From Methanofollis liminatans DSM 4140 (GTDB lineage Archaea; Halobacteriota; Methanomicrobia; Methanomicrobiales; Methanofollaceae), in the NCBI RefSeq assembly GCF_000275865.1, contig NZ_CM001555.1, positions 2,196,967 to 2,260,966 on the forward strand: a DNA stretch of 64,000 nucleotides. The letters are read 5' to 3'. Shown piece by piece: positions 14,617 through 63,063 of this stretch (its first letter is position 1; each line of letters begins with the position of its first letter). A program made the translations under genes and the position numbers. The notes under the pieces were generated by a model. The model had not been told where the DNA came from. It ran no database searches and worked only from the letters and a program-made list of their open reading frames with translations.

Positions 14617-16833
14617 TTATCTTTCATCGAGTTCAGCCGCCGCCCATACGCACTGCCCGAAGGAGATGCACCCGTCCCCGAGGGGGTAGCGGCGGTTGAC
14701 CAGGAGGGAGAGGCCCGCATCCTCGACGCACCGGCGGATCGTCTCCCGGATCGCCGCGTTGTAGGCGACGCCCCCGGAGAGGGCGACCGTCCCGATCCCG
14801 CGCTCGGCGGCGGCGTCGATCGCAAGGGTCGCCACGCCGCGGGCAAGGTTGTGCTGCACCGAGGCGGCGATCCCGTGCACGTCCCTCCCGGCCGCCCCCT
14901 CGGCCGCGGCCCGTTTCAAGAGTGCGGCGGTCTGCAGGGTCCGGCAGTTCCCCTCCCGCCCATATTCGAGGTCCCACTCCTCCGCCCGCACCCCGTACGC
15001 CGCCGATTCCAGCTTCATCGCCGGTTCGCCGTCATAGGTCCGCTCCCGGCAGATCCCGAGGAGGGCGGCGGCGGCGTCGAGCACCCGTCCGGTGCTGCTG
15101 GTCCGCGCCACGTTCACCCCCCGCTCCACCTGCCGGGCGAGCACGCCGGCCTCGACCTCGCCGAGGCCGCGTGAGAGGAGGAGGCGCAGGGTCTCCTCCT
15201 CCGGCAGGATCCCATAGAGCATCCGCTCCGGGTACCGGGTCGCCAGGTCGCCGCCCGGCATCGCCACCGTCTGGAGGTGGGCGACCCGTTCGAGGTGCGG
15301 CGCCGCCCCGGCAAAGATTTCGCCGCCCCAGATCGTTCCGTCGTCGCCGTAGCCCACGCCATCGATAGCGATCCCGACGCACTCCTCCCGGGTGGCGGCG
15401 GCGATATGGGCGCGGTGGTGCTGGACGGCCACGAGTTCGGCGCCGGTCTCCGCCGCCAGTTCACGGGCGTACCTGGTCGAGAGGAACTGCGGGTGGAGGT
15501 CGTGGGCGATCACCTCGAACGAGGCCCCGAGCAGGCGCCCGATCTTCTCCACCGTCTCCTGCAGGTAGGCGAGGGTCTGCGGGTTCCGCACATTGCCCAC
15601 GTGCGGCGAGGTGACCGCAAACCCGTTCCGGTAGATCGTCGTCGTGGCGTTGAGTTCGGGCCCGACGCCCAGGATGCAGCGCCCCCCGAGATCGATCGCC
15701 GCCCGCATCGGCGCCATCCCCCGCGAGAGCCTGATGATATGCCCGTCCCGCACCACCGAATCGTCGCAGCGGTTGACGATCTCCCGGTCGTGCACGAGAA
15801 AGGCGTCCGCCGTCCCGCGGAGGCGCTCGACGGCGTCGGCGGTGGCGGTGATCATCGGCGTCCCCGGCATGTTCGCCGAGGTCATCACCAGCAGGTCGTG
15901 GCCGAGGCGGGCGAAGAGGAGGTGGTGGAGCCCGGTGTACGGGAGCATCACCCCGATCGTGTGGAGGGAGGAGATCCCCCTGTTCCCGGCGGGGTCACGC
16001 TTCTCCATCACCACGATCGGGTGCACGCGGTCCCGCAGCGCCCCCCAATCCTCCTCGGTCGGGGAGGCGTAGCGCTCGACGGCGTCCTCCCGCACCATCA
16101 CCGCCAGGGGCTGTTCCTGCCTGCCGAGGCGCCCCTTCAGCACGCCTGCCGCCTCTTCGGTGCAGGCGAGGTGGAAGCCCCCGAGCCCGCGGACGGCGAG
16201 GATCTGCCCGGCGTCGAGCATCGCCGCCGCAGCGGCGACCGGGTCGGCGCACGCCCTCTCCGTCCCGTCCGGCCCCAGGAGGGCGAGGGACGGCCCGCAC
16301 GACGCACAGGCGATCGTCTGGGCGTGATGGCGGCGGCACGCCGGATCGGCGTACTCGGCCCCGCAGGGCGTGCAGGTCGGGAATGCGTCCATCGCCGTCC
16401 GTTCCCGGTCGTACGGGAGGGTTTTTATGATGCTGTAGCGGGGGCCGCAGTTGACGCACGAGGTCGCCCAGTATCCCTCGTAGCGCCCGCCCGGCGTGAA
16501 GATGTCCCTGATGCAATCGTCGCAGACGGCGACGTCCGGCGGGATCATCCCGTCGAGCGATCCCTGGCCGCTCGACCGGATCACAAACCCCGGCCCGACC
16601 TCCTCGTCCAGCGGGAAAACGTCCACGGCGTCGATCGTCGAGAGGACCGTACCCTTCGAGACCTCGGCACAGAACTCAGAAAAGCGCGCACCGGCAGCGG
16701 CGATCTCCACCCGGCTCCCGAGGTTCTTCACCCAGCCTGAAATTGCGTATTTCTCGGCGAGAGCATAGACGAACGGCCTGAATCCAACCCCCTGCACAAT
16801 ACCGCGGATGACGATTTTCCCTCTGTTTTGCAT
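14617..16833 (-). CDS. hypF: Carbamoyltransferase HypF, hydrogenase maturation
   Basis: A full-length 738-residue HypF. It has an acylphosphatase domain (1-90, G-I-V-Q-G-V-G-F-R), two zinc fingers with paired C-x2-C motifs (about 107-185), a YrdC-like domain (about 200-385) and a C-terminal Kae1-like domain with V-Q-H-H-R-A-H and D-G-V-G-Y-G-D-D-G. It converts carbamoyl phosphate to the cyano ligand donor for [NiFe] hydrogenases, which a methanogen needs for hydrogen use. The start at 16831-16833 lies 15 bases downstream of a shared divergent promoter. Confidence 0.96.
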   Translation of the reverse strand: MQNRGKIVIRGIVQGVGFRPFVYALAEKYAISGWVKNLGSRVEIAAAGARFSEFCAEVSKGTVLSTIDAVDVFPLDEEVGPGFVIRSSGQGSLDGMIPPDVAVCDDCIRDIFTPGGRYEGYWATSCVNCGPRYSIIKTLPYDRERTAMDAFPTCTPCGAEYADPACRRHHAQTIACASCGPSLALLGPDGTERACADPVAAAAAMLDAGQILAVRGLGGFHLACTEEAAGVLKGRLGRQEQPLAVMVREDAVERYASPTEEDWGALRDRVHPIVVMEKRDPAGNRGISSLHTIGVMLPYTGLHHLLFARLGHDLLVMTSANMPGTPMITATADAVERLRGTADAFLVHDREIVNRCDDSVVRDGHIIRLSRGMAPMRAAIDLGGRCILGVGPELNATTTIYRNGFAVTSPHVGNVRNPQTLAYLQETVEKIGRLLGASFEVIAHDLHPQFLSTRYARELAAETGAELVAVQHHRAHIAAATREECVGIAIDGVGYGDDGTIWGGEIFAGAAPHLERVAHLQTVAMPGGDLATRYPERMLYGILPEEETLRLLLSRGLGEVEAGVLARQVERGVNVARTSSTGRVLDAAAALLGICRERTYDGEPAMKLESAAYGVRAEEWDLEYGREGNCRTLQTAALLKRAAAEGAAGRDVHGIAASVQHNLARGVATLAIDAAAERGIGTVALSGGVAYNAAIRETIRRCVEDAGLSLLVNRRYPLGDGCISFGQCVWAAAELDER

Positions 16834-16842
16834 TCAAGACCT

Positions 16843-16889
16843 GCAAAAACTTATTGTGTGATAGAGCGATATATAAATAGGGTTTTTGC
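16843..16889. promoter_or_regulatory. Divergent hypF promoter with long-spaced inverted repeat
   Basis: GCAAAAAC (16843-16850) and GTTTTTGC (16882-16889) are perfect inverted arms enclosing a central TATA element GATATATAAATAG (16869-16881) that can serve either strand. An arm falls at the expected start site on each side. Confidence 0.5.
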
Positions 16890-17402
16890 GTGACTGGCCA
16901 TATTCGGATAGTGAACGATCCCGTCGAACTCGTACCTCTGCTCCTCACCTTCAACAATCCAAAATTCAAGCAGCTCTACGAACTGCTCGATAAGAACTGG
17001 ATGACCGAGGAGGAGCTCGCAGAGCGGTGCGAGAGCGCCTGCGTCGCCTCATGCCTTTCCATCCTCAGGAAGGGCAACCTCATCGAGGAGCAGTGGCGGA
17101 TGCCGAAACCCGGCGAAAAGCCGAGCAAAGAGTTCAGATCAACTTACAAGACCTTCAGGGCGAATTTTCAGTGCTCGATGATCGATCTCGCCGACCTGAT
17201 CTATATCTCCCTCTCGACCGATGAGAACATACAGAAACTGGCGTCCCATGTGGAGGACGAACTGAATTCAGGGAACACGTCCATCGCCGATATCGCACGG
17301 AAGTTTGAGGTATCACCCCTCGTCATCAAGGCGCTCTCCAAGCGGATTCCAAACCTTGATGTGAAGGGGCAGGGACTGGTCCATGTCGGCAATGCCAGGT
17401 GA
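16890..17402 (+). CDS. Winged-helix transcriptional regulator-like protein
   Basis: A protein of up to 170 residues. It opens with a wHTH-like region (P-K-F-K-Q-L-Y-E-L-L to the W-M-T-E-E-E-L-A-E-R helix, including cysteines in C-E-S-A-C-V-A-S-C) and ends with a second helical HTH-like part (S-I-A-D-I-A-R-K-F-E-V-S). GTG at 16890 is the longest start. The TATA box at 16869-16877 puts the transcript start near 16897, so the second GTG at 16911 (M-N-D-P-V-E-L-V) may be the true start. It overlaps the next regulator gene by 20 bases. Confidence 0.75.
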   Translation: MTGHIRIVNDPVELVPLLLTFNNPKFKQLYELLDKNWMTEEELAERCESACVASCLSILRKGNLIEEQWRMPKPGEKPSKEFRSTYKTFRANFQCSMIDLADLIYISLSTDENIQKLASHVEDELNSGNTSIADIARKFEVSPLVIKALSKRIPNLDVKGQGLVHVGNAR

Positions 17403-48190: not shown

Positions 48191-48330
48191 GTCAGGTGAT
48201 CTTGACATATCGGTATCACCTGCATTATACGTCAGGTAAACTTGACATATCGATACCACCTGCATTCTACGTCAGGCAAACTTGACATATCGATACCATC
48301 TGCATTCTAAGTCAGGCGAACTTGACATAT
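48191..48330. repeat. 40-bp tandem repeat, 3.5 copies, upstream of fic
   Basis: Units at 48191, 48231, 48271 and a half unit at 48311. Each begins GTCAGG-N4-CTTGAC, itself an imperfect palindrome, followed by ATATCG-A/G-TA-T/C-CA and TGCATT. A TATA box GATATATATG (48336-48345) follows directly, so the array is placed as a multi-site operator. Confidence 0.85.
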
Positions 48331-48377
48331 TTTCAGATATATATGCCATGAATGCAGATGGATCTGGTGAGGGAGAA

Positions 48378-49526
48378 ATGATGAGCGAACGGGCAGGGAC
48401 CCTTGTCCCGCAAAAAGGGGGGTACGCAGCATTCGTCCCGAAACCGCTGCCGCCGGAAGACCTGGACCTCGACGAGGGGCTGCTCCTCCTGCTCTCGAAG
48501 GCCGACACCGCCCTTGCGCGGCTCGACGGCGTGATCCAGGTGCTCCCGAACCCGGACCTGTTCGTCGCGATGTACATCAAGAAAGAGGCCCTGCTCAGTT
48601 CGCAGATCGAGGGGACACAGGCGTCGCTGCGCGGCGTGCTGGAGTTTGAAGCCGACCTGAAGCCCGAAGAGGACATCAACGAAGTCCGTGAAGTCGTCAA
48701 CTACATCAAGGCGATGGGGCATGGGATGGAGAAACTGGAGTTTTCAGAGTTTTCAATCGACCTTCTGAACGAGATCCACCGGTTTCTGATCCAGGGGACC
48801 AGAGGCGGATATAAAAGGCCCGGCACGATCAGAGCGGAACAGAACTGGATCGGCACCGCGGGCACACCCATACAGGACGCAGTGTATGTCCCGCCGCCGC
48901 CTGAGATGGTGCCGGCGTTGATGCGCAACCTCGAACGCTTCATCCAGCAGCCGGACAGGATCCCTCTGCTGATAAAAGCCGCCCTGATCCATGCGCAGTT
49001 TGAGTCCGTTCACCCCTATCTCGACGGAAACGGCCGTATGGGAAGGCTCCTGATCACGTTCTTTCTCTATTACAAGGGCATGCTCTCGAAACCGCTCCTC
49101 TACCTGAGTTTCTACCTGAAAAAACACCAGCAGGAATACTACCGGATCCTCAACGATATCAGGTACAGCGGGGACTGGGAAACGTGGATCGCCTTTTTCC
49201 TCAGGGGCGTGATCGAGACCTCCACCAACTCCGTCGAAACGGCGAAAAAGATCATCGGTCTCAGGTCAGACCTGGTAAATACCCTCCTGGAAAAGAATAT
49301 CGGCGGCGTTGTCGCCCTTAAATTCATCGACGTGCTCTTTGAAACGCCGTTGATAACGGTTTCACGGGCGGCCGAGGCCCTCGATATCAGCCGCCAGAGT
49401 GCAAACGCCCTGGTGAAAAAGTTTGAAGATGCCGGGATCCTGGTCGAGATCACGGGGAATCAGCGATATAAGAGGTACATCTTCAGCGATTATCTGCGCA
49501 TTGTTCAGGAGGGGACGTACAGGTAG
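48378..49526 (+). CDS. Fic-family AMPylator with N-terminal inhibition motif and C-terminal HTH
   Basis: A 382-residue protein. Fic_N with the inhibitory helix S-S-Q-I-E-G near residue 75 precedes the Fic core H-P-Y-L-D-G-N-G-R-M-G-R near residues 211-222, an intact catalytic loop. A C-terminal winged helix (about 300-382, V-S-R-A-A-E-A-L-D-I-S-R-Q-S-A-N-A-L) could bind the tandem repeats upstream. It may add AMP to a host target. The ATG at 48378 or 48381 follows GGGAG; an upstream frame extends only into promoter DNA. Confidence 0.92.
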   Translation: MMSERAGTLVPQKGGYAAFVPKPLPPEDLDLDEGLLLLLSKADTALARLDGVIQVLPNPDLFVAMYIKKEALLSSQIEGTQASLRGVLEFEADLKPEEDINEVREVVNYIKAMGHGMEKLEFSEFSIDLLNEIHRFLIQGTRGGYKRPGTIRAEQNWIGTAGTPIQDAVYVPPPPEMVPALMRNLERFIQQPDRIPLLIKAALIHAQFESVHPYLDGNGRMGRLLITFFLYYKGMLSKPLLYLSFYLKKHQQEYYRILNDIRYSGDWETWIAFFLRGVIETSTNSVETAKKIIGLRSDLVNTLLEKNIGGVVALKFIDVLFETPLITVSRAAEALDISRQSANALVKKFEDAGILVEITGNQRYKRYIFSDYLRIVQEGTYR

Positions 49527-50673: not shown

Positions 50674-53271
50674 ATGCCGCATATCGAGACCATCCACAAA
50701 ACCTGTTTCGTCTGCCATAAATCATCGGAGCAGAATAAAATCGCATCTCCGGTGCATCCAGGTACAGCCGGACCGTCGGGAATAGTGGAACTTGAAGGTC
50801 GCCCGGAGGAACTGACAGAGATCGTTCTGAGAAACTGCCTTGAAGTCTGTCCGCACTGTGGATACATCGCTGAAGACATCGGGGAGAAAACATCGATCAC
50901 CGGAGACGACCTGCAATCCCCCGACTACCGCCGTCTCCAGAATCCGGAAATCCCCACGTCTCCCTCCCTCTACCTGCGTGCCGCACTCGTCCGGCTGGCG
51001 GAAAACAACCCGGAAAAAGCCGTAGAGTATTATATCTCCGCCGCATGGTGCGCTGACGACCTGGCCAACCCCGAGTTAGCCGTTTCCTGCCGGAGAAAAG
51101 CCCTGTCCCTGATATGTGCCGAGACCAAAACATTTGCCAACATCCCCCCGGAAAAATGGGTTCAGGTCCTGGATACCCTGCGGCGGTGCGGGGATTTCGA
51201 CAGCGTGATCGCTCACTGTACCGGTCTTCTGGCTATTGCCGACCCGGCACTGCAGCAGGAACTCGAGTACGAACGCTTCTGCGCGAAACAGATGGACAAT
51301 ACACCGCATACCAATCTTGATGCCGCAAACAGCAGTCGATACGGATCCAGGCCGCAAAATGCCGGGGACGAGTTCACCATCGACGGCAAATCCTACTCAG
51401 TCAAAGACGACTGTTGTGGCAGGGGATGGACCTGGGTTGCAGAAACACGCACCCTTGTCCTCTCCAACTATCACGGCGGGGCAATTCATGCAACCGGAGA
51501 CATCACCATCCGGCTCGAACAGATCGACAACCAGATCGACAGTGCCCACGGGCCGGGTATTCACATTCACCAGGGAAACCTGAAACTCTCAGGTGCAATG
51601 TTTTTGTCCATTAACGGGGATGAAGGGGGGATTTTTGTTGATGAAGGCACATTGGAAATAGCGGGTGCTTTCCTTAAAATCCGGACAAAAGAGTACGGGA
51701 TCTTTGCCTCGGGAACTATCACCTTCACGGACTGTTGCGTCATTGACGTCCGTTCAAACACGACGGCAATCAAATCGGTGTCGGGTGGATTGAATGCATC
51801 CAAGCCCGTCCTGAAAATCTTTGGAATGAATGCAGGAATCGACATTGTGGGAGATTTGAACCAGACTGAAGGTATTCAGCATATCGAGAGTCCCAACGGC
51901 TGCGGAATTCTGAGTCGCCACGGTTCTCTTGCACTCACTGGCTGTGATATTGACTTCATCTGCGGGGATACCTGCATCTGCCTCGAAAATGGCAGTCTCT
52001 CCACCAGAATGATGCACGGCACCCTGAATGGAACCTCCTGCGTGCAGGTAAACGGTTCGTGCAGTATTATTGGTAGCAATATAACTGTCTCCGGGGAGGA
52101 CTGCGGACTTTTTGTATCCGGAGATATGGAAATTTCTTATTCTAAATGCGAATCTTCCGGAAAAAATGCCATCGCTGTTGAAGGAAACCTGCACATTCAA
52201 AATGTGAACATCTCTGCATCAGGAGGAATGGGGATCTCTGTTGGTGGCGATATGAAATGTGCCGGAGGGATCCTGAAGCTTCAAGGAGATACGGCAATGC
52301 AGATCTCAGGGAATGCAGAAATCTCCAACGGCCTGATTATGGGAGTCGGCAAAATCAGTGGTATTGTGGTGAATGGTTCCTATTACCAGTCCGGGGGAGA
52401 TGTTTCTTTCTCCGGGGAGGCGCAGGACGGCATGTGGATTTCCGGAAAAGAGATGAGAATAACCGACGGAGGATCCCTCACGGCATCAGGCCGGAAAAGC
52501 GGACTGGATGTAGAAGGAGATGTAACACTGGAGAATGTTCCTCTCCTTTCCGCTTCTGGCAATATCGGATTTACCTGTACGTCGCTGAAAATTAAAAGCG
52601 GGAATATTAAAGTTACCGGTGAGGAAATCGGTCTTTCTGTGAGGGGCGGCAATCTTATTTTCGGTGACACGGTAACGGTGAATGCAACCGGCAATGTGGG
52701 GATATATACGACAAAGGATATCGGTATTCATGGAAGTGCTTCAATTCAGGTTACCGGGCAGTTTGCCGGGATTATTCTGGAGAGTGGCAATCTGATGATT
52801 ACCGATGGTGCAATAGATATATTTGGAGATGAATTCGGGATATTGCTCCAGTCAGGGTCAATGGAGGTTTTTGCCGGGATTATTGGCATTACCAATTCAA
52901 GGATGACGGATTCAGGAGGCTGCGGTATTGCTGTTGAGAAAGGAAATCTGGCTGCAGGAAGTATAATGACGATTAACGGTGAGAGTTACGCGATATCAGT
53001 ACCCTGCGGAGAGATTTTCATGAGACGAGGGATGATCGAGGCTTACGGTTTCCGGGCAGGTATTACGGGGAAATCCCTGACACTGAAAGATGTAGCACTT
53101 ACTGCCTACGGAAAGACAGAGGGAGCGGTTGTTCTCACCGGGCGTGAGCCCTGGAATGATGAAGGACTCGTTGTTCTGGCAGGAAAATCTACCCGGACCG
53201 CGAATGAGGCGGTTTATTCCGGACAGAAATTCGTCCATGCCTATACGGTTCATCCCCCTGATGCACCGTGA
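50674..53271 (+). CDS. DUF2225-like zinc domain fused to a long beta-helix
   Basis: An 865-residue protein without signal peptide. Residues 1-190 match a DUF2225-like domain: C-F-V-C near residue 11, V-E-L-E-G-R-P near 39, C-P-H-C-G-Y near 59 and a TPR-like A-A-L-V-R-L-A-E segment. From about 215 on come some 22 turns of 20-24 residues with G-D/N-L-x-I-x-G-x-x-I-x-x-x-G and G-I-x-V-x-x-G, a right-handed beta-helix like the Cthe_2159 carbohydrate-binding fold. Lower GC than its neighbours. Function unknown. Confidence 0.78.
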   Translation: MPHIETIHKTCFVCHKSSEQNKIASPVHPGTAGPSGIVELEGRPEELTEIVLRNCLEVCPHCGYIAEDIGEKTSITGDDLQSPDYRRLQNPEIPTSPSLYLRAALVRLAENNPEKAVEYYISAAWCADDLANPELAVSCRRKALSLICAETKTFANIPPEKWVQVLDTLRRCGDFDSVIAHCTGLLAIADPALQQELEYERFCAKQMDNTPHTNLDAANSSRYGSRPQNAGDEFTIDGKSYSVKDDCCGRGWTWVAETRTLVLSNYHGGAIHATGDITIRLEQIDNQIDSAHGPGIHIHQGNLKLSGAMFLSINGDEGGIFVDEGTLEIAGAFLKIRTKEYGIFASGTITFTDCCVIDVRSNTTAIKSVSGGLNASKPVLKIFGMNAGIDIVGDLNQTEGIQHIESPNGCGILSRHGSLALTGCDIDFICGDTCICLENGSLSTRMMHGTLNGTSCVQVNGSCSIIGSNITVSGEDCGLFVSGDMEISYSKCESSGKNAIAVEGNLHIQNVNISASGGMGISVGGDMKCAGGILKLQGDTAMQISGNAEISNGLIMGVGKISGIVVNGSYYQSGGDVSFSGEAQDGMWISGKEMRITDGGSLTASGRKSGLDVEGDVTLENVPLLSASGNIGFTCTSLKIKSGNIKVTGEEIGLSVRGGNLIFGDTVTVNATGNVGIYTTKDIGIHGSASIQVTGQFAGIILESGNLMITDGAIDIFGDEFGILLQSGSMEVFAGIIGITNSRMTDSGGCGIAVEKGNLAAGSIMTINGESYAISVPCGEIFMRRGMIEAYGFRAGITGKSLTLKDVALTAYGKTEGAVVLTGREPWNDEGLVVLAGKSTRTANEAVYSGQKFVHAYTVHPPDAP

Positions 53272-53833: not shown

Positions 53834-55036
53834 ATGAAACTATTCGAAGAGACGAACATTCACCGGGAGGTGATTTTTATTCTGGCCGTTGGCCTGATCA
53901 TGCTCGTCATCGGTGCCGTGCTGTTTTCGGTCGCCGCAGGAGCATTGCCCTACTACAGGGACGGGGTGTACGGTCTCCTTCTGGTTATGTTCGGCCTGCA
54001 GCTGCAAACGATAGAAAAAATTCCGTTCGGGTCCGTGCAGAGATCAGGGCAGCTCCGTATTCCAGGGATCATCATCACCCTGATAGGTATTGTCACCTGT
54101 TTTATTCCGGGCATTTTTGGCGACGTCCCGAAGTTCCTGGTGATGATCGCCTTCGGAGCGGGCGGGATTCTGCTGCTTTTGCAGATGTTTTTTGCACATG
54201 AGACATCCCGGTTCTGGAAAACACCGGGTGGCGGGGTGACCGCGCACCTTACCGTCAACTGTGCTGCAGCCTCCGTTCTGGAGATGCTGATTGCAGCGTT
54301 GATCGCAGTGCAGATTTACCTGCCTGCCCTCCTTTCAACCGAACTTCTGGCGGTTGCCGCTCTGCTCTTCGGCAGTGCCCTGTTCTATCTTGCTTTTGTT
54401 CTGCAGAAGGTGTATTCGCTCCACGCCGAACCCGGGATATCCACAAACACTACTGGCATGTCCCCTGGTACCGTCATGGGAATGCAGTTTGGTTTCTACA
54501 TGCTGATCTTCGGCTGCCTGCTGGTTCCGGTGTACCTCGGGTTACTGCCGTATGCTCTGAGCGCCATGCATGGTACCCTGATAGTGCTGCTTGGCGTTCA
54601 GGCGCTGGTCAGCGGCGTTATGATGACGTTCTCGTTCAAACGCAATTGGATTTTCTTCCTTGTGGGGATGGTGTTTGTTGCGGTCGGTGCGTTCGCCATC
54701 ATTGTTCCTGACACGATTGTTGAGTTTCTTGTTATCTTTATCGGCGTTTTCCTCATTTTCGCAGGACTTTATCTCCTCTCCACCCTGATCAGGCCGAAAC
54801 CGAAGTCGGAGGACCCCGCCAAAAAACTGGAAGGAAAAGATCTTCTGCTGGTGCTGGTGCTGCTTGCCCTGGCACTGCTTATTGTCATCATGATGATTCT
54901 CCTCGGCGTGTCAATGCTGATCGAAAACCTGGTTCCGGGTATTTTTATTGTCATTATTCTGGTATGCTTCGGATTGATACAGTTCGCTCTGCTCTATGTC
55001 CAGTCAATCGTAGAGAGGAAACATCTTCTCGGATAA
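53834..55036 (+). CDS. Polytopic membrane protein, 400 residues (paralogue of 61612/62214 genes)
   Basis: About eleven hydrophobic helices. The N-terminal 135 residues carry G-A-L-P-Y-Y-R-D-G-V-Y-G-L-L-L-V, then K-I-P-F-G-S-V-Q-R-S-G and C-F-I-P-G-I-F-G, motifs shared with the two membrane genes at 61612-62864. The second half (about 215-400) is related but diverged and ends K-H-L-L-G. No known family. It lies in the low-GC island and may act with the beta-helix protein upstream, though a scar separates them. Confidence 0.8.
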   Translation: MKLFEETNIHREVIFILAVGLIMLVIGAVLFSVAAGALPYYRDGVYGLLLVMFGLQLQTIEKIPFGSVQRSGQLRIPGIIITLIGIVTCFIPGIFGDVPKFLVMIAFGAGGILLLLQMFFAHETSRFWKTPGGGVTAHLTVNCAAASVLEMLIAALIAVQIYLPALLSTELLAVAALLFGSALFYLAFVLQKVYSLHAEPGISTNTTGMSPGTVMGMQFGFYMLIFGCLLVPVYLGLLPYALSAMHGTLIVLLGVQALVSGVMMTFSFKRNWIFFLVGMVFVAVGAFAIIVPDTIVEFLVIFIGVFLIFAGLYLLSTLIRPKPKSEDPAKKLEGKDLLLVLVLLALALLIVIMMILLGVSMLIENLVPGIFIVIILVCFGLIQFALLYVQSIVERKHLLG

Positions 55037-55752: not shown

Positions 55753-56094
55753 ATGGCGAAATACCGGGAGCGAAACCCCTTCGCGGAGATTACGCTGCAG
55801 GAAGCGAACGAAATGAAGTATCGCAACGACTATGCGAACGCTATCGAGATCTACGATCAGGTTCTTGAGATCGACCCCCAGAATGCCAGGGCGTTCCACT
55901 CAAAGGGGAATGCAATGGATCTGCTTGGCAGATATGAGGAAGCAATTTCATGCTACGAATCGGCCCTCACATGCGATCCGAACAACGCAGAAACCCTGTA
56001 TAACAAAGGGGTAACCCTCTGTAAGATCGGGCGCCAGAGCGAGGGTGTCGAGTGCATCGAGCAGGGAGTGTCCATCTCGTTCGGAAATCAGTAA
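55753..56094 (+). CDS. TPR-repeat protein, 113 residues
   Basis: Two full tetratricopeptide repeats (about 20-53 and 54-87), with N-A-R-A-F-H-S-K-G-N-A-M-D-L-L-G-R-Y-E and N-A-E-T-L-Y-N-K-G as the canonical helices. A protein-protein interaction module without an attached domain. The promoter is AT-rich with the inverted repeat at 55695. Between 56095 and 56283 I see no gene. Confidence 0.85.
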   Translation: MAKYRERNPFAEITLQEANEMKYRNDYANAIEIYDQVLEIDPQNARAFHSKGNAMDLLGRYEEAISCYESALTCDPNNAETLYNKGVTLCKIGRQSEGVECIEQGVSISFGNQ

Positions 56095-61611: not shown

Positions 61612-62217
61612 CTACCGGATCGTCATCAGGATGCCGGCGAGCGCAAAGAGCAGCAGGCCGTTGAGCACCAGGATCCCCGCGATCGCCACGCCCGGGACGA
61701 GGGCCGGGAGGAACATGGTGATGCCGAAGGCGATGGAGACGAGGTTGAGCACCGTCTGGGTCATGAGCAGTTTTTTGAGAGCGGGCGGGAGGGCGACCGG
61801 TTCGGCCGGGGGGTGCCGGTGGGCCCGGACCACCGGGAGGAACCGCCGGGTCAGGAGGACGGTGCCGCCGACGATGTTCAGGAGCCCGAGGAGCGCCTGG
61901 ACCATCCCGGTCAGGATACCGGGGACGATGCACGAGAAGATCCCGGCGGCGGCGAAGGCGATCCCGACGACGATCAGGAGCAGCGAGCGCCTGTACTGTC
62001 CCACCGGGGTCTCGCCCAGGGCCAGCATCTGGATGGCCATGATCACCATCAGCAGGCCGAGTTGACCGTCCGGGGAGAAGGGGATCATCCCCAGGTTGAC
62101 CGGGAAGAGGAGAAGCCCGAGAAGGACCAGGAGGGTGGCGACCGGGAGGACGATCGCGACCTGGAGGGGGATGGACGCATCCCCGAAGAGTCCGGGGCGA
62201 TCGGTCTCTGGCGTCAT
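61612..62217 (-). CDS. Membrane protein of the 53834-like family, shorter form
   Basis: A 201-residue protein with five or six helices. It has N-L-G-M-I-P-F-S-P-D-G-Q-L-G-L-L-M-V, T-P-V-G-Q-Y-R-R-S and C-I-V-P-G-I, matching the N-terminal half of the 400-residue protein at 53834 and the protein encoded just upstream. No known family. It starts within the stop of that gene (ATGA) and is its operon partner. Confidence 0.75.
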   Translation of the reverse strand: MTPETDRPGLFGDASIPLQVAIVLPVATLLVLLGLLLFPVNLGMIPFSPDGQLGLLMVIMAIQMLALGETPVGQYRRSLLLIVVGIAFAAAGIFSCIVPGILTGMVQALLGLLNIVGGTVLLTRRFLPVVRAHRHPPAEPVALPPALKKLLMTQTVLNLVSIAFGITMFLPALVPGVAIAGILVLNGLLLFALAGILMTIR

Positions 62218-62864
62218 TCCGGCACCTCCGGCATATCAGGTCGTTCGGGCGGGTACCGGCGGTTCGCCGCCTGGATGCACCACGAGAGGTAGAAGAAGCA
62301 GATCCCGTAGAGGATCAGGAGGACGGCGGTCTGGGGGTCGGTGGTGATCCCGGGGAGGAGGGTGACCGCCCCCAGGACGATCGAGAAGAGATAGACGAGG
62401 GCGCAGGCGAGGGTCAGGTGCCGGAGCACGCCGGGAACCTTCATCCAGGTCCGGGCCCGCCCTTCCGGGATGACGAGCTGGAGGAACAGGGCGAACCCGC
62501 CGGCAAAGAGCAGAACGCCGACCAGGATCCTGACAGGTTCGGAGAGGGGGCCCGGGATGAAGCAGGCGGTCATCCCGACGATCGCCGTAAAGATCCCGAG
62601 GACGATCACCGCCCACGAACGGCGGAGGTCGCCGAACGGGGTTTTGCCCATCGTGATCACCTGCAGGGAGACGATGACCAGAAAGAGACCGTAGGTGCTG
62701 TCCGGGGCGTACGGCAGGTCGCCGGTATGGATTTTGAAGAGGAGGAGACCGAAGAGGAGCATGAATACGCCGAAGACGATCAGGATGACGACCTCGAGGG
62801 AGAGGTCGGATTCCCATCTCGATCTCAGAGAGGATTGTTCGTTCTGCTGGTTCTCAGATACCAT
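62214..62864 (-). CDS. Membrane protein of the 53834-like family
   Basis: A 216-residue protein with a charged 30-residue N-terminus and six helices. It shares the family motifs G-D-L-P-Y-A-P-D-S-T-Y-G-L-F-L-V, K-T-P-F-G-D-L-R-R-S and A-C-F-I-P-G-P. GGGAGCG precedes the ATG at 62862-62864. First gene of a two-gene unit. No function is known; the conserved P-Y-x-x-D-x-x-Y/L-G-L loop suggests a structural or binding role outside the helices. Confidence 0.78.
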   Translation of the reverse strand: MVSENQQNEQSSLRSRWESDLSLEVVILIVFGVFMLLFGLLLFKIHTGDLPYAPDSTYGLFLVIVSLQVITMGKTPFGDLRRSWAVIVLGIFTAIVGMTACFIPGPLSEPVRILVGVLLFAGGFALFLQLVIPEGRARTWMKVPGVLRHLTLACALVYLFSIVLGAVTLLPGITTDPQTAVLLILYGICFFYLSWCIQAANRRYPPERPDMPEVPE

Positions 62865-63063
62865 ATTCAGATCGCTCCCGGGATTTTTTCGGCAACATGA
62901 CCGCCGCATACCCCTGATTAAATAAATAACATCTCAATGACTCCCGATATATTTATGCGTATGTTTAATCAGTTCTACACCGCGTCTCCAGAAACGGATG
63001 CGTAAGAGGAGTCAGATCCACAGATGTATATAATATGAAATATGAGATCAGGCAAATGGACTG
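62865..63063. other. Divergent promoter region
   Basis: AT-rich interval between the membrane-protein pair (minus) and the acetoacetate decarboxylase-like gene (plus). It holds GATTAAATAAATAAC (62913-62927), suited to the minus genes, and ATGTATATAATATG (63023-63036), suited to the plus gene. Confidence 0.5.

Follow-up and report, generated by a model that had tools for sequence, protein, structure and literature searches.

A cytosolic beta-helix rod protein of methanogens as a candidate signalling scaffold

Architecture of the fusion protein

The window (the whole stretch of DNA analysed, 64,000 nucleotides from Methanofollis liminatans DSM 4140) includes, at 50674-53271 on the forward strand, a real and intact ORF of 865 amino acids with an ATG start; its reading frame runs just 12 codons 5' of this ATG, and the genome (2,475,100 bp) holds a single copy. 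The features of this gene and of the two neighbours discussed below are the following:

50674..53271, + strand: whole fusion ORF, 865 aa, cytosolic (ORF, homologues)
50674..51318, + strand: zinc-ribbon (CxxC, CPxCG) and TPR-like helical domain, DUF2225-like, residues 1-215 (motifs, Pfam matches of homologues, profile comparison)
51370..53127, + strand: right-handed beta-helix rod of about 25 turns, Cthe_2159-like, residues 233-818 (model, turn marks, caps)
53834..55036, + strand: DUF308-kind membrane protein, 400 aa, 7 or more TM segments (Pfam DUF308 at 2e-6, co-occurrence)
55753..56094, + strand: small TPR protein, 113 aa, neighbour in 13 of 14 close loci (neighbourhood comparison)

The GC content of the gene was 51%, compared to 65% in the flanks, in agreement with the first-pass annotation, which had placed the gene in a lower-GC island. 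The same annotation described the protein as lacking a signal peptide or anchor, and neither a signal peptide nor a TM segment was detected in the 865-aa chain (the 19-residue hydropathy peaks at 1.5 over the whole chain and at 0.33 within residues 1-60). Just 5' of the fusion gene lies a gene encoding a Fic-domain protein (48282-49526, + strand) with a strong PADLOC SoFic match (2.6e-118).

The N-terminal domain includes the zinc-ribbon motifs CxxC (residues 11-14) and CPxCG (residues 59-63), followed by TPR-like helices. Pfam DUF2225 (PF09986), the family to which this domain had initially been assigned, gave no match to the window protein, which was below the gathering score (own-genome search included), and weak matches in three of eight homologues of the domain (best 1.5e-4); profile-profile comparison (hhalign) with four DUF2225 proteins gave a 98% probability over 184 colinear columns. 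Since the direct Pfam match is absent, the homologues match weakly and the profiles nevertheless align, the DUF2225 label appears valid at superfamily level only, and the relation remote: the zinc ribbon and the TPR-like helices of the original description stand, the family membership does not. In both, CxxC ... CPxCGY precedes the TPR-like helices, and the profiles align colinearly; the window domain differs in falling under the Pfam cut-off and in being fused to a beta-helix. The structure model of this domain was helical and of low confidence (pLDDT 45, from an alignment of the window protein and one homologue). The domain was also found alone, with no rod, in other Methanomicrobiales genomes, and those of the Methanoculleus type have ABC-2 permeases adjoining. 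The ABC-2 permease pair was conserved in four loci (L028, L029, L030, L130); the stand-alone DUF2225-like zinc-ribbon/TPR gene adjoins it in L028, L030 and L130, and in L029 by search coordinates.

The rest of the chain had been read as about 22 beta-helix turns; the beta-helix was confirmed, with a slightly higher count. The rod shows 25 turn marks spaced 21-29 residues apart, from residue 270 to 818, compared to a longest chain of 11 in 500 shuffles. Structure prediction, proposed in the first-pass annotation as a check, gave an AlphaFold model (two-sequence alignment, mean pLDDT 64.8) with predicted strands throughout 233-836 and block pLDDT values mostly of 65-92 from 233 to about 810, and the first half of the modelled rod could be superposed on the beta-helices of tailspikes (Z 21, rmsd 3.2-3.4 Å, about 290 residues). 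Searching the PDB by sequence with the rod gave chance-like matches only, and Foldseek with the model gave no match below E 0.001. The rod ends are near-invariant (N-cap GxGWxW...Y, C-cap TAYGK), and the distance between the caps varies little: the non-kinase fusions, the 28%-identical one included, have 560-569 residues, and four kinase-form proteins described below have 582-584, about one turn more; by a second landmark, the rod of genome G082 is longer still. At a rise of 4.8 Å per turn, the rod would be about 12 nm long.

In an alternative reading of its function, the protein binds a polysaccharide or other polymer inside the cell, a role kept from the exported Cthe_2159 proteins (PF14262, carbohydrate-binding beta-helices), with the end domains reporting on or processing the ligand. 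The fold class is the same and the Pfam Cthe_2159 profile matches 10 of 18 rod members (best 3e-13), the gathering score being passed by the L024, L025 and G204 relatives; the same genome also encodes a Cthe_2159 protein of the typical exported type, which bears a hydrophobic segment at its N-terminus (L157, own genome 1971848-1972690). However, the window protein is under the cut-off, has no signal peptide before its rod and belongs to a family with regulatory domains at the rod ends; the conserved polar residues on the rod are few, with no obvious binding or catalytic cluster, and no polysaccharide gene was seen beside the fusion. We consider a binder of this kind rather unlikely.

Conservation and spread of the fusion and its neighbours

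The rod profile was found in 20 of 232 Methanomicrobiales genomes, and in none outside this order among 393 genomes of the phylum. Sixteen of the 20 rod genes encode both the N-terminal domain and the rod, so that the fusion, which the first-pass annotation had suggested seeking elsewhere, is present in 16 of the 232 genomes, with identities to the window protein ranging from 28 to 85%. Fourteen full-length fusions, including that of the window, are 861-882 aa long, the other 13 being 50-85% identical to it; the fusion of genome G051 (locus L024) is 28% identical, and genome G082 (locus L063) encodes the N-terminal domain, the rod and a HATPase domain in a single 1023-aa chain. Within the genus of the window, three of 12 genomes have the fusion.

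An accidental fusion or a decaying gene might be suspected from the single copy, the low GC and the presence in three of 12 genomes of the genus, and close homologues lacking either half had been named in advance as the sign of such an accident. None was found: every homologue at 50-85% identity keeps both halves, and single-half forms are distant relatives only. The 16 fusions have intact frames and constant length, and dN/dS was about 0.28-0.45 between the window gene and close members (0.28 for the helix between the Methanofollis homologues W and L021); the comparisons point to purifying selection on the fusion. A negligible probability is therefore left to decay, and fusion by accident is ruled out by this conservation (16 intact fusions, constant length, purifying selection).

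Sequence comparisons support that the fusion has spread horizontally among methanogens, because its synonymous divergence contrasts with that of a RecJ-like housekeeping gene, its tree is in conflict with the taxonomy and its GC is low. Between the window and UBA467, from another family, the fusion was 79.5% identical with a dS of 0.33, compared to 49% and 1.53 for the RecJ-like gene; between the window and two congeners, the values were 84-85% and about 0.25 for the fusion, and 72% and 0.77 for the RecJ-like gene. In the fusion tree, in which the position of two divergent fusions is uncertain, family f5 falls in three places.

The transfer, together with the low GC, is also what would be expected if the cassette travelled among methanogens within a mobile island of defence or accessory genes and protected them against viruses or plasmids, and defence-like neighbours exist (SoFic in the window, a SIR2-type gene in a congener). 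These defence genes, however, differ from locus to locus, and the cassette has no nuclease or toxin domain. PADLOC and PHROGs gave no match for the fusion or the DUF308 protein, nor PADLOC for the TPR protein; no relatives were found on plasmids (searched with the window protein), nor on phages or in viral contigs (phages searched with the L025 relative). The defence function considered in the first-pass annotation thus found no positive evidence, and we regard it as improbable. The SIR2-type gene of the congener lies near the fusion in L022 (7564-9351, + strand; PADLOC PDC-S65, 1.9e-58).

The survey of neighbours, also proposed initially, revealed two recurrent genes. The 400-aa DUF308 protein adjoins the fusion in 11 of 14 close loci and the small TPR protein is a neighbour in 13 of them, in varying order and orientation; in the window the gaps within this cluster are 562 and 716 bp, and the three genes are not one tight operon. 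The membrane protein resembles HdeD-like DUF308 proteins in matching DUF308, and differs from them in forming a distinct clade seen only with the rod gene: genome-wide, the close clade (E<1e-95) was present in 12 genomes, all 12 with the fusion (Fisher p=2e-18, a value which ignores relatedness and joint transfer and therefore shows linkage, not function). In genome G204 the DUF308 gene is away from the fusion locus, and G207 and G210 have the fusion without the close clade. Two adjoining membrane ORFs (61612-62909, - strand) lie about 8 kb from the fusion in the window; one of them (62214-62909) overlaps the second match of the genome to the profile of the DUF308 neighbour.

Kinase-form relatives in Methanocorpusculum

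Four Methanocorpusculum rod proteins have no N-terminal domain and carry instead a C-terminal HATPase_c_2 domain (2e-20 in the L025 protein), whose PDB match was RsbW (6m36). At L025, L054 and L062 a STAS gene, whose product has an MSS(V/I)GL motif, comes after the rod-kinase gene, and a gene encoding a 7-TM SpoIIE-type phosphatase (1e-46) faces it; at L063 the three-domain gene has a STAS reading frame immediately 3' of it, and the end of a SpoIIE gene comes next. By its predicted products, the Methanocorpusculum locus is a full partner-switching set (kinase, STAS protein and SpoIIE phosphatase). The rod-fused kinase is the sole HATPase_c_2 protein at E<=1e-5 in genomes G036, G056, G073, G074 and G082 (the last 85% complete). 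The grouping of HATPase_c_2, STAS and SpoIIE genes is that of the known modules SpoIIAB/SpoIIAA/SpoIIE and RsbW/RsbV/RsbU; unlike their kinases, which are small and single-domain, the kinase here is preceded by a rod of about 600 residues.

This kinase bears on the location of the protein. Export is usual for long beta-helices of such kind, and tailspikes and adhesins have the closest folds, so that a surface adhesin, or a protein exported by a non-classical route, might be imagined. Against it, the signal peptide is absent, the zinc ribbon starts at residue 11, and relatives join the rod, in one chain, to an ATP-dependent cytosolic kinase of RsbW type. Export has a very low probability; adhesion, considered in the first-pass annotation, is unlikely and disfavoured by these relatives, and the intracellular scaffold named there as another option agrees with the missing export signals and with the predicted regulatory kinase on the relatives' rod.

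The 2009 genome paper on M. labreanum (PMC2686161), in the part available, lists Mlab_1450 (phosphatase), Mlab_1451 (anti-anti-sigma) and Mlab_1452 (anti-sigma) and states that the targets of the methanogen 'anti-sigma' proteins are unknown, as archaea lack sigma factors; that part of the account includes no beta-helix. Mlab_1452 is most likely the rod-kinase, because the position of the locus and the phosphatase-STAS-kinase order fit. Methanogen anti-sigma and anti-anti-sigma proteins have been a puzzle since then. The search for the target now has a definite starting point, since the sole Methanocorpusculum kinase of RsbW type is the tail of a cytosolic rod that, in other methanogens, bears a zinc-ribbon/TPR head.

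A putative role as intracellular signalling scaffold

No HATPase_c_2 domain was found by Pfam in the window protein, whereas five distant relatives have it, and neither a STAS nor a SpoIIE phosphatase gene lies beside the window gene, although both adjoin the kinase-form relatives; the window member has either lost the kinase or never had one, and in this it differs from the known partner-switching modules. Its genome has a free-standing HATPase_c_2 (RsbW-like) gene at 1,397,756. Genome G051 has the fusion and no HATPase_c_2 gene anywhere, so a free-standing RsbW-like kinase is not required everywhere; given this and the missing neighbours of the window gene, partner switching cannot be a general requirement of the non-kinase form. 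Free-standing RsbW-like genes occur in rod-less genomes too, and consequently show no specific co-occurrence with the rod.

The explanation that we favour, tentatively, is that the protein is an intracellular rod of fixed length which serves as scaffold or sensor arm in signalling of the partner-switching type and whose terminal modules are exchangeable. In Methanocorpusculum, the STAS protein encoded next to the rod-kinase would be phosphorylated by the RsbW/SpoIIAB-like serine kinase at the C-terminus of the rod and lose its phosphate again through the neighbouring membrane phosphatase of SpoIIE type, and the kinase would alternate between the STAS protein and some other target. In the lineage of the window, which has no kinase, the zinc-ribbon/TPR head and the rod would be used with the dedicated DUF308 and small TPR proteins, the likeliest role being that of an adaptor, linked to the membrane, which would bind or position signalling partners, the free-standing RsbW-like protein of the genome being a possible one. 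The analysis establishes the domains, the fusions, the neighbours and their co-occurrence, the rod length and the missing export signals; we infer the direction of signalling, the part of the rod as sensor or scaffold, the membrane linkage through the DUF308 protein and the link of the window rod to the distant RsbW-like gene. The window protein is probably an inherited, shared regulatory scaffold, rather than a protein of the cell surface or the product of a chance fusion.

The cytosolic beta-helix between variable flanking domains is also the plan of bactofilins (PMC12364344), and halofilins are known in Haloferax (PMC12186497); a cytoskeletal element of this type, forming end-to-end filaments at the membrane that shape the cell, with terminal domains recruiting partners, would be compatible with the membrane-protein neighbour. 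However, the window rod (about 590 residues) is far longer than those of bactofilins and halofilins, and its near-invariant ends are cap-like and would hinder end-to-end stacking; the scattered presence in 20 of 232 genomes is not what one would expect of a protein that shapes the cell, and the kinase on the relatives' rod, like the zinc-ribbon module, is foreign to these proteins and speaks against a cytoskeletal role. The Pfam search at E<=1 gave no bactofilin profile, though weak matches are lost to the filters of HMMER, and the structural superposition list (VIA-align) included no bactofilin chain, an absence that excludes nothing. We give such a filament little weight, and prefer the signalling rod.

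The first-pass annotation knew of no described system with this architecture; this holds for the window architecture itself, whereas the relatives tie the rod to partner-switching signalling. It is possible, though we hold this with less confidence than the scaffold role, that these loci represent an undescribed signalling system of methanogens, composed of a cytosolic rod of conserved length, exchangeable heads (zinc-ribbon/TPR, RsbW-type kinase) and a dedicated DUF308 protein, in a cassette moved horizontally. If true, such a rod-based system would hint at the way in which 'anti-sigma' proteins work in archaea, where sigma factors are lacking. The rod is also a further example of a very long intracellular beta-helix in a regulatory context. 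Directly 3' of the divergent fusion of L024, a gene (15747-17057, + strand) encodes a PEGA-domain protein that has a hydrophobic segment at its N-terminus.
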